DNA from: Syntrophomonadaceae bacterium
Lineage (GTDB): Bacteria > Bacillota > Syntrophomonadia > Syntrophomonadales > DTU052
NCBI GenBank assembly: GCA_012729505.1
Contig: JAAYDA010000058.1
Location: forward strand, 1 to 43,679
Direction: 5' to 3'
Length of the DNA stretch: 43,679 nt
Part shown: positions 5,972 through 24,247 of the stretch, piece after piece
How positions within the stretch are numbered: position 1 is the stretch's first letter
How the letters are laid out: each line of letters starts with the position of its first letter
Made by a program: the position numbers and the translations under genes
Notes under the pieces: generated by a model
What the model was told of the DNA's origin: nothing
Seen by the model: the letters and a program-made list of their open reading frames with translations, nothing else
Database searches by the model: none

Positions 5972-6420
5972 TATAGCTACCTCCTTTTCTATTATGCATG
6001 GTTATTTACAAAGTCTGATTTTAGCAATTGCAGCGAAATCTGACTTCATATTCAATGTTACAAGTGGCTTGCCTATGCAAATAATATACATCATTTGGAT
6101 GGTGGCTGTCATACCGCATTAGCTCTTTCATAATAACCAATATCTTCAGCACTTAGAAGCATTAGAATTTATATGGATCCCAAGGTTTTCTGTATTTATG
6201 GATTATCATATAATATTCTCGTCCATCACTTCTTTTATGACTGTCAATGATCAGGAAAATGTCATATAGGGACTAGCTGGAGCCACAAATACTTTACCAG
6301 AGATTTGGCTCCCGGATTCGATCTGGATTGAATTCCACTTGCTCCCGGAATGAGCTATGATATGAATAATAAAACGATAATTTTTGGGTATTAATTTATG
6401 CCTGAAAGGAGGCCTGTGAT
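5972..6420. other. Intergenic region with dispersed repeat copy A
   Basis: A gap of about 450 bases between divergent genes. It contains repeat copy A (about 6243-6354), described separately. TATAAT-like bases occur near 6209, but no convincing -35 was found. No coding potential was recognised. Confidence 0.6.
6243..6354. repeat. Dispersed repeat copy A
   Basis: This is very similar to 12234-12339: both share GGACTAG, ACAAATACTTTA.CAG, GATTGAATTCCACTTG and TCCCGGAATGAG in the same order and with similar spacing. The end contains the inverted repeat ATTCC...GGAAT. A shorter relative is at 20778-20808. Confidence 0.75.
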
Positions 6421-12036: not shown

Positions 12037-12188
12037 ATGGCCGCCTAAGTCCCTTTCGGCCATTATATCATTGGAGCGAAGCTTCATTGATATAATCGGC
12101 GCATGTGCGTTTGGCCTCAGGCCAAAATATCGCACGCGCTCTGAAATAAACTATATAATGGCCGCCTAAGTCCCTTTCGGCCATTATA
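12037..12188. repeat. Nested palindrome block with two direct copies of a hairpin
   Basis: Two direct copies of a hairpin (ATGGCCG, loop CCTAAGTCCCTTT, CGGCCAT) lie at 12037-12063 and 12154-12188. The second extends to an 11-bp stem TATAATGGCCG/CGGCCATTATA. Between them are TTATATCA (12063-12070)/TGATATAA (12088-12095), and a two-part hairpin: GCGC..GTGCG (12099-12109)/CGCACGCGC (12131-12139) capped by TTTGGCC-TCA-GGCCAAA (12110-12126). It is noncoding. It could be a miniature mobile element, a structured RNA or a protein-binding array. Confidence 0.75.
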
Positions 12189-12215
12189 CATTATTCTCCA
12201 CAAATTCGGTAATAT

Positions 12216-12233
12216 TTATTTTAAAATAGTTAT
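12216..12233. repeat. 18-bp direct repeat, left copy
   Basis: TTATTTTAAAATAGTTAT is identical to 12569-12586. The two copies flank a 335-base segment that holds dispersed repeat B and a GC-rich structured stretch. Confidence 0.9.
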
Positions 12234-12339
12234 GTCATTGACCAAGAAGAATGGGTTAGGACTAGTGGGAGACAAATACTTTAGCAGATTTGATTCCTGA
12301 ATTCGACCCGGATTGAATTCCACTTGTTCCCGGAATGAG
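12234..12339. repeat. Dispersed repeat copy B
   Basis: The counterpart of copy A (6243-6354), sharing the same order of conserved blocks through GATTGAATTCCACTTG and TCCCGGAATGAG. It begins directly after the left 18-bp direct repeat. Confidence 0.75.
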
Positions 12340-12550
12340 AACCGGCAAATACAACTGCTCAGGTTCGGCCTCCGGGCAGCACACCGCCAATTCGCCCTCC
12401 ATGGCTCAGGAGGCGGACTCAGGACCTCCTGTCCTTCGGCTGCCCTTTTGCCTCACCTTCGTAGGTGTTTGCTCGGTTTTCATCCCCACGGTCACTACGT
12501 CAGCATTCCACCCGTGTCTTCGCACCCAACTTCCTAATTGGGGATGACAT
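12340..12550. other. GC-rich, hairpin-rich noncoding stretch
   Basis: This segment is clearly richer in GC than its flanks. Visible pairings are GGGCAGC (about 12373)/GCTGCCC (about 12434-12440), CCTCC-ATGGCTCA-GGAGG, AGGAC-CTCCT-GTCCT and CACCT-TCGT-AGGTG. Both reading frames through it are short and unlike any known protein. It may be a structured RNA or part of an inserted element. No SRP, 6S, RNase P or tmRNA core was recognised. Confidence 0.45.
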
Positions 12551-12568
12551 TTTTCCAGATCAATAACA

Positions 12569-12586
12569 TTATTTTAAAATAGTTAT
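12569..12586. repeat. 18-bp direct repeat, right copy
   Basis: Identical to 12216-12233. Its last base is the first base of the -35 box of the next promoter. Confidence 0.9.
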
Positions 12587-12637
12587 TGACATAAGTTCAT
12601 AACCTGATATACTAATAGCAGTAACGGGCATATGCCC
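12586..12637 (+). promoter_or_regulatory. SigA promoter and GGGCATATGCCC operator of the ORP-like cluster
   Basis: TTGACA (12586-12591), a 16-base spacer and TATACT (12608-12613) make a near-consensus housekeeping promoter. The perfect 12-bp palindrome GGGCATATGCCC (12626-12637) lies just past the expected transcript start and before the ribosome site, where a bound repressor would block transcription. The DUF134 protein encoded second in the cluster is the natural candidate to bind it; this is inference. Confidence 0.75.
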
Positions 12638-12661: not shown

Positions 12662-12907
12662 ATGCCCAGGAGAGACGGAACCGGTCCAGTTGGGAATGGA
12701 CCTCGAACCGGAGGCGCCCGAGGATTTTGCAGAAGCAGCATCCCAGCAAATCCTAATAGAGGCTGGAAATGCACAGGAATGGGAAGGGGTTTTCGACACT
12801 TTGGATACCAGGATCTCGAGAGCAATCAGAAAAGTGCATTGCTTCATCGGAAGGAATGGTTGGAAGGTGAGCTGAATGCCATTAACAGACATCTTGAAAC
12901 CCCTTAG
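12662..12907 (+). CDS. DUF5320-family small Gly/Arg-rich protein
   Basis: An 81-residue protein that opens MPRRDGTGPVGNGPRTGGARGFC, the hallmark of DUF5320 proteins, which are widespread in anaerobes beside NifX-like and MinD-type genes. The N-terminal half is Gly/Arg-rich with two Cys. The C-terminal 30 residues form a likely amphipathic helix (LLHRKEWLEGELNAINRHLE). Its function is unknown; a metal-related or chaperone role is only suggested by its constant neighbours. The ATG at 12662 follows AAGGAGGT by about 7 bases. It is the first gene of the cluster behind the promoter/operator. Confidence 0.85.
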   Translation: MPRRDGTGPVGNGPRTGGARGFCRSSIPANPNRGWKCTGMGRGFRHFGYQDLESNQKSALLHRKEWLEGELNAINRHLETP

Positions 12908-12973
12908 ACTATTAAGACTCGGGTTAATATGATAAACTCCTGATACAATCAACAGCCTTAGGAGGTGGGCTCT

Positions 12974-13354
12974 TTGTCCAGACCAGTTAAGTGGCGGAGA
13001 GTTTGTTGTGAACCCGAGACTAACGTATTCGGCCCCCTGAACAGAAATAATTTTTCCGGAGAATACGTGATAATGACTGTGGAGGAATATGAGACTTTGC
13101 GTCTTATAGACCTGGAAAGATTTACACAGGAAGAATGCGCCGACCGAATGGCTGTGGCCCGCACAACAGTTCAACGAATATATAACGAGGCTCGCCAAAA
13201 GGTAGCCAGATCCTTAGTAAATGGAGCAGTTCTCAGAATTGAAGGCGGGAACTACAAGCTTTGCGAGGACGCAGAAATCAGTTCAGGATGCCCCCATTGT
13301 CATCGTCGGCGATGGCGGCGAGACAAGGACGAAACCATCAGCCCGATGGAATAA
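12974..13354 (+). CDS. DUF134 (UPF0251) DNA-binding regulator
   Basis: A 126-residue predicted DNA-binding protein. The opening LSRPVKWRRVCCEPETNVFGP matches the conserved N-terminus of DUF134 (RPxKxRRVC...P...F.P). A sigma-factor-like helix-turn-helix follows (LERFTQEECADRMAVARTTVQRIYNEARQKVA, about 46-78). The C-terminus has CEDAEISSGCPHCHRRR, a possible metal or cluster ligand set. The TTG at 12974 is the likely start, because the GGAGGT site (12961-12966) overlaps the earlier in-frame GTG at 12965. It probably autoregulates the cluster through the palindrome at 12626-12637 in response to metal or redox state; this is inference. Confidence 0.85.
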   Translation: MSRPVKWRRVCCEPETNVFGPLNRNNFSGEYVIMTVEEYETLRLIDLERFTQEECADRMAVARTTVQRIYNEARQKVARSLVNGAVLRIEGGNYKLCEDAEISSGCPHCHRRRWRRDKDETISPME

Positions 13355-13472: not shown

Positions 13473-13841
13473 GTGAAAATTGCTTTACCGGTGGAAAATA
13501 ATATGGCCGATTCCAATATAAGCCCATCCTTTGGTCGAGCTCCTTATTTTCTCATTTATGACAGTGATACTGACGAAAGCATATATGTTAATAACACCGC
13601 AGCCGCCAGTCAGGGAGGTGCCGGAATTAAAGCAGCTCAGGCTGTAATTGATCTGGGTGCCCAGGCGCTTATTACTCCACGCTGCGGCGAGAATGCAGCC
13701 CAGGTAATCAAGATTGCCGGAATTGAAATGTATAAGTCCCAGGGCTTATCGGCCGCCGCAAATATTGCTGCATATAAGGCGAATACCCTATCCCCCCTTG
13801 ATGATATTCATCCCGGATTTCATAATCACGGAAACAAGTAA
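13473..13841 (+). CDS. NifX/NifB-like cofactor-binding protein (ORP-like), first copy
   Basis: A 122-residue protein of the dinitrogenase iron-molybdenum cofactor biosynthesis family. It starts MKIALPVENN, has SPSFGRAPYFLIYD, and ends in a short His-containing tail (HPGFHNHGNK). Family members bind metal-sulfur clusters: NifX and NafY carry FeMo-co precursors, and the Desulfovibrio orange protein binds a Mo-Cu sulfide cluster. The GTG start at 13473 follows GAAGGAGG. The gene ends one base before the next start, so translation is coupled to the first ATPase. No nif genes are present, which argues against a nitrogenase role. Confidence 0.88.
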   Translation: MKIALPVENNMADSNISPSFGRAPYFLIYDSDTDESIYVNNTAAASQGGAGIKAAQAVIDLGAQALITPRCGENAAQVIKIAGIEMYKSQGLSAAANIAAYKANTLSPLDDIHPGFHNHGNK

Positions 13842-20479: not shown

Positions 20480-21016
20480 ACTAACATCACCCTTTCAATC
20501 TTACATATAGATTTTCTGTAACTGTTGAAAACTGCTATCCCTTCTTTGCCTAATACCGTTCAACATATCTACTAATACATCGATAAAATTCGTCAATCTC
20601 TTTACTAATTTCCGTATTTTGTTATTTTGTGAATATTCGATTATCTCAGTATTTAAAGAGCAAAACTAATTGTCTGACCGTTATTTTGGCAATACTTAAT
20701 TATAATGATTGTAAATGATCAGAATTTCAGGTTGCGAAACACAAATATCTAAGGCGTAGATTTAGCTTCGGCCACTGACCGGGATGAATTCCACTTGTTT
20801 CTGGAATGTAAGGAACGTTGGTACTCTGCGCCTACACCAGCAACTCACACAAAACTCTGGGAGGAAATTTAGTGCCCTGCTTATTTCAACTGAAATTTCC
20901 CCTGATCAAAAACATATTTAAAAAAATGTTTCTCTATCCTCGCCATGATGTGATAGAATTTATTGCTGGAAAAATATATGACCTTTAAATGTTTCTAAAA
21001 AGTTGGGAGGAATTTT
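20480..21016. other. Intergenic region with dispersed repeat copy C
   Basis: A gap of 537 bases between divergent genes. It contains repeat copy C (20778-20808) inside a possible long stem (GGCGTAGA near 20753 with TCTGCGCC near 20827). No carB leader of a known type (PyrR site, riboswitch) was recognised. Confidence 0.5.
20778..20808. repeat. Dispersed repeat copy C (short)
   Basis: GATGAATTCCACTTGTTTCTGGAATG matches the 3' part of copies A and B in pieces: GAATTCCACTTG is shared, followed by the GGAATG arm of the inverted repeat. Confidence 0.6.
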
Positions 21017-24000
21017 ATGCCCAAACGAACTGACATCTCCAAAATCCTTATCATTGGATCAGGCCCTATTGTAATCGGCCAGGCATGTGAATTTGACTAT
21101 TCCGGGACCCAGGCCTGCAAAGCTCTGCGAAAGCTAGGCTACCAGATAGTATTAGTTAACTCTAATCCAGCCACTATTATGACTGATCCTGAAATCGCTG
21201 ATGTAACGTATATCGAACCACTAAACGTAAGAAGTCTGACCGATATAATAGCTAAAGAACGACCCGATGCACTGTTGCCTAATCTGGGCGGCCAATCAGC
21301 TCTGAACCTTAGTGCGAAACTATCCCAGGCCGGTATTTTGGCTCAATACAACGTCAAAGTAATCGGGGTACAAATCGATGCCATTGAACGCGGTGAAGAC
21401 CGTATCGCCTTTAAAGAGACTATGAATCGGCTGGGTATTGAAATGCCCCGCAGCAAACCCGCTTATACCATTGAGGAAGCCGAAACGATAGCCGCAGAGC
21501 TGGGATATCCCGTGGTTATCCGCCCCGCCTACACTATGGGAGGTACCGGGGGAGGCCTCGTCTATAATATTGAAGAATTGCGAACTGTGGCTAACCGAGG
21601 AATTACCGCAAGTATGGTAGGTCAAATACTGGTGGAAGAATCTGTGCTTGGCTGGGAAGAATTAGAGCTGGAAGTGGTCCGCGATACAAAAAACCAGATG
21701 ATTACCGTCTGTTTTATTGAAAACATTGACCCTATGGGAGTACATACCGGAGACTCTTTTTGCTCCGCCCCCATGCTTACCATCACCTCCGAACTCCAGC
21801 ACAGGCTCCAGAAATATGCATATGCAATTGTTGAAGCCATCCAAGTGGTGGGCGGAACAAATGTCCAATTCGCCCACGATCCCAAAACCGATCGGGTAGT
21901 AATTATTGAAATCAACCCCCGGACATCTCGTTCCTCCGCCTTAGCATCTAAAGCCACCGGCTTCCCTATCGCCTTGGTTTCAGCCATGCTGGCCGTAGGT
22001 TTGACCCTGGATGAAATACCCTACTGGCGTGACGGAACTCTGGATAAATACACCCCCTCCGGTGATTACGTGGTCATTAAGTTTGCCCGCTGGGCATTTG
22101 AGAAATTCCATGGTTCGGAAGATAAGCTGGGAACTCAAATGCGCGCCGTCGGTGAAGTAATGAGCATCGGGAAAAACTATAAAGAAGCCATGCAAAAAGC
22201 AATACGCTCTCTGGAAATCAGCCGTTATGGCTTGGGCTTCGCTAAAGATTTTCATCACCAGACCCTGCCCGAATTGCTGGACGCGCTCATTGAACCCAGC
22301 AGCGAGCGGCAATTTATCATGTATGAGGCCCTGCGCCAGGGTGCCGGTATTGAACAGCTCAACAGCCTGACCCATATCAAACCATGGTTCATACAACAGA
22401 TGAAAGAACTGGTTGAATTAGAAGAAGAAATCCTGACTTACAAAAACCAGACCCTGCCTGACAGGCTGCTGATCCAAGCCAAAAAGGACGGCTTTGCCGA
22501 TCGATACCTGGCTATGCTGCTGGGAATATCGGAGACTGCAATCCGCAAGGCCCGCATCGGTCTGGGCGTTGTGGAAGGCTGGGAGCCTGTTCCCGTTAGC
22601 GGAGTGGAAAATGCGGCCTACTATTTCTCCACCTACAATGCGCCGGATAAAAGTCAGGTCAGTGAAGGACAAAAAGTAATGATCCTGGGCGGAGGCCCCA
22701 ACCGGATTGGGCAAGGAATTGAATTTGATTATTGTTGCGTCCATACCGCTTTTGCCCTGCGGGATCTGGGCTATGAAACCGTTATCGTCAACTGCAATCC
22801 GGAGACTGTATCAACCGACTATGATACCTCAAATAAGCTTTACTTCGAGCCCCTAACCGTTGAAGATGTGCTGAGCATCTACGAAAAAGAAAAGCCTTTG
22901 GGGGTCATCGTTCAATTTGGAGGACAAACTCCCCTGAATATTGCCGCCGACTTAGCCCAAGCAGGGGTGAGAATTCTCGGTACAAGCCCGGAGACTATCG
23001 ATTTGGCCGAAGATCGTGACCAATTTCGTCATATAATGGATAAGCTTGAAATACCCATGCCTGAATCAGGGATGGCTGTAAACCTTGAAGAAGCCCTTGC
23101 TATTGCCAAAAGAATTGGATACCCGCTGATAGTCAGGCCCTCGTATGTCTTGGGTGGCCGGGGTATGGAAGTAGTATATGATGAGGATATGCTGCGCCAG
23201 TATCTGGCAGCCGCAGTTGGAGTCACTCCCGACAGACCGATTTTGATTGACAGATTTCTTAGTAACGCCATCGAAGCCGAAGCTGATGCCATCAGTGACG
23301 GCCATGAAGCTTTTGTCCCCGCAGTAATGGAGCATATTGAACTGGCCGGAGTTCACTCCGGTGACTCTGCCTGTGTGATTCCGCCCATCAGTATTCAAGA
23401 TAAACATATTAAGGACATTGTGGATTATGCTAAGAGGATTGCCCGTGAATTAGGAGTAGTCGGCCTGATGAACATACAATACGCCATTACCGATGACCGG
23501 GTTTATATTTTGGAGGTAAACCCAAGAGCATCACGAACTGTCCCCCTGGTATCAAAAGTCTGCAATATCTCCATGGCCCGTATTGCCACCGAGATTATGA
23601 TGAAATCATTAGTCGGCGGGAAATACCCGCTCAACAGCCTGACTTCTAAAAAACTCCCGCATTTTGGAGTCAAAGAAGCAGTTTTTCCCTTTAATATGTT
23701 CCCGGAAGTGGACCCCATTCTGGGGCCCGAAATGCGCTCTACCGGTGAGGTTTTAGGAATTGCGGATTCCTTCGGACTAGCTTACTACAAGGCTCAGGAA
23801 GCAACCCAGTCACCCTTGCCCACCTCCGGAACAGTATTGATCAGTATAAACGATCAAGACAAGCAATCAGCACTTCAAATTGCGCGGGAATTCGTAGAAA
23901 TAGGCTTCAAGATCAAAGCCACCGCTGGAACCCATAAATATCTCAAAGAGAACGGCGTCGATTCAACGGTGATTAAAAAAATACACGAAGGACGCCCCAA

Positions 24001-24247
24001 TATAGCCGATGACATAACCAACCAGGAATTAAATCTGGTAATTAACACCCCTTCGGGTAAACGCAGTCAGCATGATGATTCCTATATTCGAAAAAGTGCC
24101 ATCAGATACCAGGTCCCCTATATTACCACTATGGCCGCAGCATTAGCCAGCGCCAGGGGAATAGCCGCCTTCAAAAACAACGATTACTCAGAAGGCCGGT
24201 TAAAATCTTTACAAGAATATCATGCTGATATCACCCGGATCGAGTAA
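21017..24247 (+). CDS. carB: Carbamoyl-phosphate synthase large subunit
   Basis: A full-length 1076-residue CarB. Two homologous ATP-grasp halves start at GSGPIVIGQACEFDYSGTQACKAL (about 11) and GGGPNRIGQGIEFDYCCVHTAFAL (about 556), each with the biotin-carboxylase-like ATP site (RPAYTMGGTGGG and RPSYVLGGRGME). The C-terminal MGS-type allosteric domain covers about 935-1076. It makes carbamoyl phosphate from bicarbonate, ammonia (from CarA) and two ATP for pyrimidine and arginine synthesis. The ATG follows TTGGGAGG. No carA is adjacent, so the small subunit must be unlinked. Confidence 0.97.
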   Translation: MPKRTDISKILIIGSGPIVIGQACEFDYSGTQACKALRKLGYQIVLVNSNPATIMTDPEIADVTYIEPLNVRSLTDIIAKERPDALLPNLGGQSALNLSAKLSQAGILAQYNVKVIGVQIDAIERGEDRIAFKETMNRLGIEMPRSKPAYTIEEAETIAAELGYPVVIRPAYTMGGTGGGLVYNIEELRTVANRGITASMVGQILVEESVLGWEELELEVVRDTKNQMITVCFIENIDPMGVHTGDSFCSAPMLTITSELQHRLQKYAYAIVEAIQVVGGTNVQFAHDPKTDRVVIIEINPRTSRSSALASKATGFPIALVSAMLAVGLTLDEIPYWRDGTLDKYTPSGDYVVIKFARWAFEKFHGSEDKLGTQMRAVGEVMSIGKNYKEAMQKAIRSLEISRYGLGFAKDFHHQTLPELLDALIEPSSERQFIMYEALRQGAGIEQLNSLTHIKPWFIQQMKELVELEEEILTYKNQTLPDRLLIQAKKDGFADRYLAMLLGISETAIRKARIGLGVVEGWEPVPVSGVENAAYYFSTYNAPDKSQVSEGQKVMILGGGPNRIGQGIEFDYCCVHTAFALRDLGYETVIVNCNPETVSTDYDTSNKLYFEPLTVEDVLSIYEKEKPLGVIVQFGGQTPLNIAADLAQAGVRILGTSPETIDLAEDRDQFRHIMDKLEIPMPESGMAVNLEEALAIAKRIGYPLIVRPSYVLGGRGMEVVYDEDMLRQYLAAAVGVTPDRPILIDRFLSNAIEAEADAISDGHEAFVPAVMEHIELAGVHSGDSACVIPPISIQDKHIKDIVDYAKRIARELGVVGLMNIQYAITDDRVYILEVNPRASRTVPLVSKVCNISMARIATEIMMKSLVGGKYPLNSLTSKKLPHFGVKEAVFPFNMFPEVDPILGPEMRSTGEVLGIADSFGLAYYKAQEATQSPLPTSGTVLISINDQDKQSALQIAREFVEIGFKIKATAGTHKYLKENGVDSTVIKKIHEGRPNIADDITNQELNLVINTPSGKRSQHDDSYIRKSAIRYQVPYITTMAAALASARGIAAFKNNDYSEGRLKSLQEYHADITRIE

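Follow-up and report, generated by a model that had tools for sequence, protein, structure and literature searches.

The DUF5320 operon and the sequences upstream of it

In the window, i.e. the whole analysed stretch of 43,679 bp from a Syntrophomonadaceae genome, a promoter composed of a -35 box, TTGACA, at 12586–12591 and a -10 box, TATACT, at 12608–12613, separated by a 16 bp spacer, precedes a short series of genes. These encode, in this order, a DUF5320 protein (12662–12907, the first gene behind the promoter), a DUF134 protein with a helix-turn-helix similar to sigma-70 region 4 (12965–13354), a Nitro_FeMo-Co protein of the NifX/NafY type, belonging to an ORP-type cluster (13473–13841), and a NUBPL/4Fe-4S ATPase. 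Features are given on the forward strand, unless otherwise indicated. The palindrome GGGCATATGCCC is found at 12626–12637, just 3' of the -10 box, while in relatives GACATATGTC overlaps the -35 box and recurs downstream of the -10 box: these palindromes are likely to be the operators of the operon. Hairpin repeats containing ATGGCCGCCTAAGTCCCTTTCGGCCATTATA are present at 12038–12190, to the left of the insertion described below.

Upstream of the promoter, an exact 18-mer, TTATTTTAAAATAGTTAT, occurs at 12216–12233 and at 12569–12586, as reported by the first-pass annotation; a search of the 2.45 Mb genome finds it nowhere else. The right copy, again in agreement with that annotation, reaches the first base of the -35 box, base 12586 being the first T of TTGACA. 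When the ends of the bracketed DNA are taken as TGT...ACA, as in autonomous elements, the duplication proper is of 17 bp (TTATTTTAAAATAGTTA; left copy at 12216–12232, right copy at 12569–12585, immediately adjoining the -35 box). The eighteenth base is coincidental: to the left it belongs to the element, being the T of TGT, and to the right to the promoter, as the first T of TTGACA. The bracketed DNA is a dispersed repeat: a 336 bp element (12233–12568) with ends TGTCATTGACC...GATCAATAACA, bounded by terminal inverted repeats at 12233–12257, the counterpart of the transposase 3' end in autonomous relatives, and at 12543–12568, the promoter-facing counterpart of the transposase 5' end.

An allele lacking the insert, which the first-pass annotation proposed to look for, was found in 11 relatives, where the orthologous DUF5320-operon promoters (TTATTGACATATG..., flanked by GACATATGTC palindromes) are insert-free; the window allele is therefore the derived one, and the insertion joint coincides exactly with the conserved promoter. 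These data support the proposal of an insertion that duplicated its target and kept the promoter intact. The accompanying statement, that upstream DNA had been replaced, needs correction: this DNA was rather displaced, since the promoter retains 17 bp of native upstream sequence, after which the element begins. The 18-mer is AT-rich, which could favour its occurrence by chance, or as part of a segmental duplication, rather than as a scar of transposition; yet it is present only at this locus, its positions match the ends of a dispersed repeat, and other copies of the repeat are flanked by differing repeats of their own. That reading is refuted, and next to no probability can be assigned to it.

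A family of non-autonomous elements and its IS1202 relatives

BLAST comparison of the 371 bp stretch with its own genome yields about 45 matches, about half of which cover an inner core only. The others reach the tips TGTCAATGATCAGG... and ...GCTGATCAACAAC(A), so that the window element is one of roughly 20–25 tip-bearing relatives in the 2.45 Mb genome. Tip-bearing copies are flanked by direct repeats of 14–19 bp, such as GTTAAGTGATGATCTGCT, ACATTT(T/C)TGCAGGATTA and GGCATTCAGCGCTTTT, which differ from locus to locus, the signature of target-site duplication (TSD). Two further family elements are found in the window: a decayed one at 20710–20914, upstream of carB (ORF 21017–24247), with a degenerate TSD followed by a recognisable promoter, and a truncated one at 6242–6354, of which only the left tip is left. 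Another copy (L114) is located within REP-like sequence related to the ATGGCCGCCTAAGTCCCTTTCGGCCATTATA hairpin repeats.

The inner core (12314–12509, not assigned to a strand) corresponds to the "GC-rich hairpin stretch" of the first-pass annotation. It constitutes a dispersed repeat in its own right, about 195 bp long and present in roughly 30 copies, often lacking IS1202-type ends and, in one case (L025), inverted relative to them. Its centre is almost invariant, while the outer arms covary: 49 base pairs are predicted, 16 of them with compensatory changes. A search of the insert against Rfam for known structured RNAs gave nothing above chance. The core may possibly be a structured RNA or a foldback element.

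The window element is short and present in multiple copies, with terminal inverted repeats, a TSD and no transposase gene, as is general for bacterial miniature inverted-repeat elements (MITEs). Its outer ends, TGT...ACA within an inverted repeat, resemble those of autonomous IS1202-family members, and the tips are shared with L191, L200 and L271. In one genome (G055), tips nearly identical to those of the MITE bound a 1459 bp element, with TSD AGCTATTTATTAAAGTG, whose transposase, although frame-broken, matches the NCBIfam model NF033594 (ISNCY_2) over its cut-off. This curated cut-off is of 250 bits; scores are 462 bits for L215, from a sister-genus genome, 364 for L271, the type with the closest tips, 333 for L308 and 293 for L200, while the named member ISRel10 scores 505. 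Of 398 Bacillota genomes, 37 contain intact ISNCY_2 members, which are also present in the sister genus and in the order. In an alignment of 23 of the transposases, residues D152, D212, E265 and Q272 are invariant, the last one at E+7; the IS1202 family is defined by such a DDE triad, with Q seven residues past E (PMC10132070). A profile built on these transposases matches TnsB in PDB through its N-terminal part. In the tree, short-TSD plasmid members form a separate clade (100/100), and so do members with a TSD of about 27 bp (100/100).

In the genome of the window, neither an ISNCY_2 match nor any intact transposase of the IS1202 family was found. The element itself contains no transposase either, which makes it a non-autonomous derivative, a MITE, rather than an IS; the enzyme would have acted from a relative, or from a copy since lost, none being found in this assembly.

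Promoters at the target sites

The target was analyzed in 40 autonomous copies of IS1202-family elements from 20 genomes of one phylum, Bacillota, taken from all long ISNCY_2 loci fetched. Copies were retained only on the basis of clear end repeats (TSDs), sought without regard to promoters. The TSDs, mostly exact repeats, are 17–19 bp or 26–29 bp long, as detected. Moving outward from the end where the transposase starts, the 40 copies feature the TSD, then TTGACA-17-TATAAT. The first bases beyond the TSD edge are T, T and G in 38, 38 and 36 of the 40 copies, with up to 1.66 bits for TTG; a conserved -10 box, with a maximum of 1.33 bits per position, is found 23–28 bp past the junction. Spacers range from 16 to 18 bp, 17 being the best one in 32 of the 40.

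When scored by the textbook consensus, which involves no training, the TSD edge attains a mean of 9.9 out of 12; for 211 other registers the value is 4.15 (sd 0.39). A score of 9 or above is reached at 35 of the 40 edges, but only at 0.3% of random positions. A matrix derived by training on these very sites gives scores above 8 for 38 out of 40 on the promoter side and for 1 out of 38 on the opposite one; the promoter is always on the transposase-start side of the element. Several of the target promoters have tRNA or tmRNA genes downstream, as expected if these promoters are real. A copy on a Paenibacillus plasmid obeys the same rule. Two short-TSD relatives from proteobacterial plasmids (L313, L314), with candidate repeats of 5–6 bp and dif-like flanks, do not follow it.

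The MITEs behave similarly. In the genome of the window, a -35 box is found about 17–19 bp past the right tips, and its -10 box at 16–18 bp; about 22 of 25 tips fit this register, as judged by eye, while L114, L117 and L132 do not fit cleanly. An automatic scan for the best promoter, by a matrix derived from the IS1202 copies, an independent set, places 17 of the tips at offsets 13–19, the 99th percentile of background windows being a score of 11.1. Other genera of the order supplied 30 cleaner tips, and for 25 of these the top-scoring promoter was at offset 16–19. The genes behind the target promoters include rpsB, rplM, ileS, sigH, tig, htpG and carB. At the locus upstream of the stress gene htpG (L139), the right tip and the promoter in register are followed by a CIRCE-like sequence, TTAGCACTC.

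That the element landed at the -35 edge reflects a rule of its family, and is no accident of the window locus. As read from the aligned junctions, the target is cut at two points, the upstream edge of the -35 box and a position lying 17 or about 27 bp upstream of that edge; it is invariably the end equivalent to the start of the transposase that faces the promoter, with one TSD copy in between. Because of this junction position and fixed orientation, the promoter, together with 17 bp of native upstream DNA, survives the insertion, even at housekeeping genes such as rpsB, rplM, ileS, sigH, tig and carB.

Proposed promoter recognition and related systems

Most probably, the insert is a MITE, moved in trans by a DDE transposase of the long-TSD group of the IS1202 family (ISNCY_2); it is proposed that this enzyme is directed to the promoter edge through RNA polymerase or its sigma factor. 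The sigma-70-type polymerase, or sigma, would be recognised at the promoter, and the transposase would dock at its upstream edge. The promoter-proximal joint would then always fall at -36, with the distal joint 17 or 27 bp upstream of it, two distances that differ by one helical turn; this spacing between the two TSD classes had been noted earlier (PMC10045372). Recognition of the whole promoter complex is favoured by the -10 box, which is conserved past the joint although the spacer varies in length, and a role of the polymerase is also suggested by the precedent of the sister short-TSD group, which inserts beside XerC sites.

That the transposase itself reads the -35 DNA, TTGACA, independently of RNA polymerase, seems unlikely, although the highest information is found at positions 0–2 (TTG) and the element's own 3' tip is likewise TTGACA: this reading alone leaves unexplained the conservation of a -10 box more than 20 bp away, at variable spacing. 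The target is no pseudo-end of the element either, a candidate that was rejected as its -10 box is on the wrong side: the -10 box of the target and the subterminal motifs of the element lie on opposite sides of TTGACA. Random insertion, followed by selection retaining only the events that spare promoters, would agree with the sparing of essential-gene promoters, but selection cannot set a one-base junction, or an orientation, as promoters would be spared just as well by insertions at -60, at -100 or anywhere between genes, while register 0 alone stands out among the 212 registers. This explanation is disfavoured, and must be regarded as very improbable. Nearly every right end has a promoter after it, as would also be seen if the promoter belonged to the mobile unit and was carried around by the element. 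Promoters, however, are outside both TSD copies and vary in sequence by locus, and the one in the window is orthologous to promoters of relatives devoid of the element; at this locus the reading is refuted by the empty sites, and there is scarcely any chance that it holds.

Targeting through promoter-bound RNA polymerase or sigma is probably a property of the whole long-TSD IS1202 branch and its MITEs, which would form one promoter-directed system. Full-length relatives insert at promoters with base-pair precision, which suggests that they form a group of bacterial transposons homing on promoters. We know of no described MITEs with a target in register with promoters. In yeast, Ty1 and Ty3 integrate at Pol III genes, at a fixed position relative to the transcription complex; they are an unrelated class of elements, and the promoters here are bacterial, of the sigma-70 type, but integration at a fixed position is alike. 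If the interpretation is true, the long-TSD IS1202 branch would be a bacterial analogue of the Ty elements that integrate at Pol III genes.

The long-TSD group of the IS1202 family includes IS1202, ISSeq2, ISTde1 and ISHahy13, with TSDs of 16–28 bp (PMC10132070). The window element agrees with it in the NF033594 transposase family (DDE, Q at E+7), the TGT...ACA-type ends and the TSD length, but is only 336 bp long and lacks the transposase gene. A conserved target had been sought for this group in the 2023 family study, and none was found (PMC10132070); here the target, read directly at base-pair register in about 20 Bacillota genomes, is the upstream edge of -35 boxes. Short-TSD members insert beside the XerC site of dif, and contact with XerC has been suggested by the authors of the same study (PMC10132070). 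The ISAjo2 group, to which dif and pdif insertions belong, shares with the elements described here a fixed orientation and a TSD lying between element and protein-binding site. Its TSDs, in contrast, are of 3–5 bp, beside the XerC site of dif, rather than 17 or about 27 bp, beside a promoter; the window TSD, of 17 bp at a promoter, is of the latter kind, and the short-TSD sequences sampled are a clade apart from long-TSD members. No report of promoter targeting by the IS1202 family was found in the open literature, in a collection with few subscription papers and without bioRxiv preprints, so that novelty is provisional.

Insertion of this kind shows a way for a transposon to settle beside essential genes without killing the host, and predicts that the sequences upstream of active promoters are systematically rewired. 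Whether the transcription machinery guides a bacterial transposase could be tested directly on such elements, and a map of such insertions would flag active promoters in uncultured genomes.

Finally, in nearly all the long-TSD IS1202 elements inspected (L247–L302) the 3' terminus is TTGACA, and GATAAT or GATATT is found about 14 bp inside the other end. It may be speculated that, in a circular intermediate with a 3 bp spacer, the terminal TTGACA and GATAAT could form a junction promoter for the transposase.
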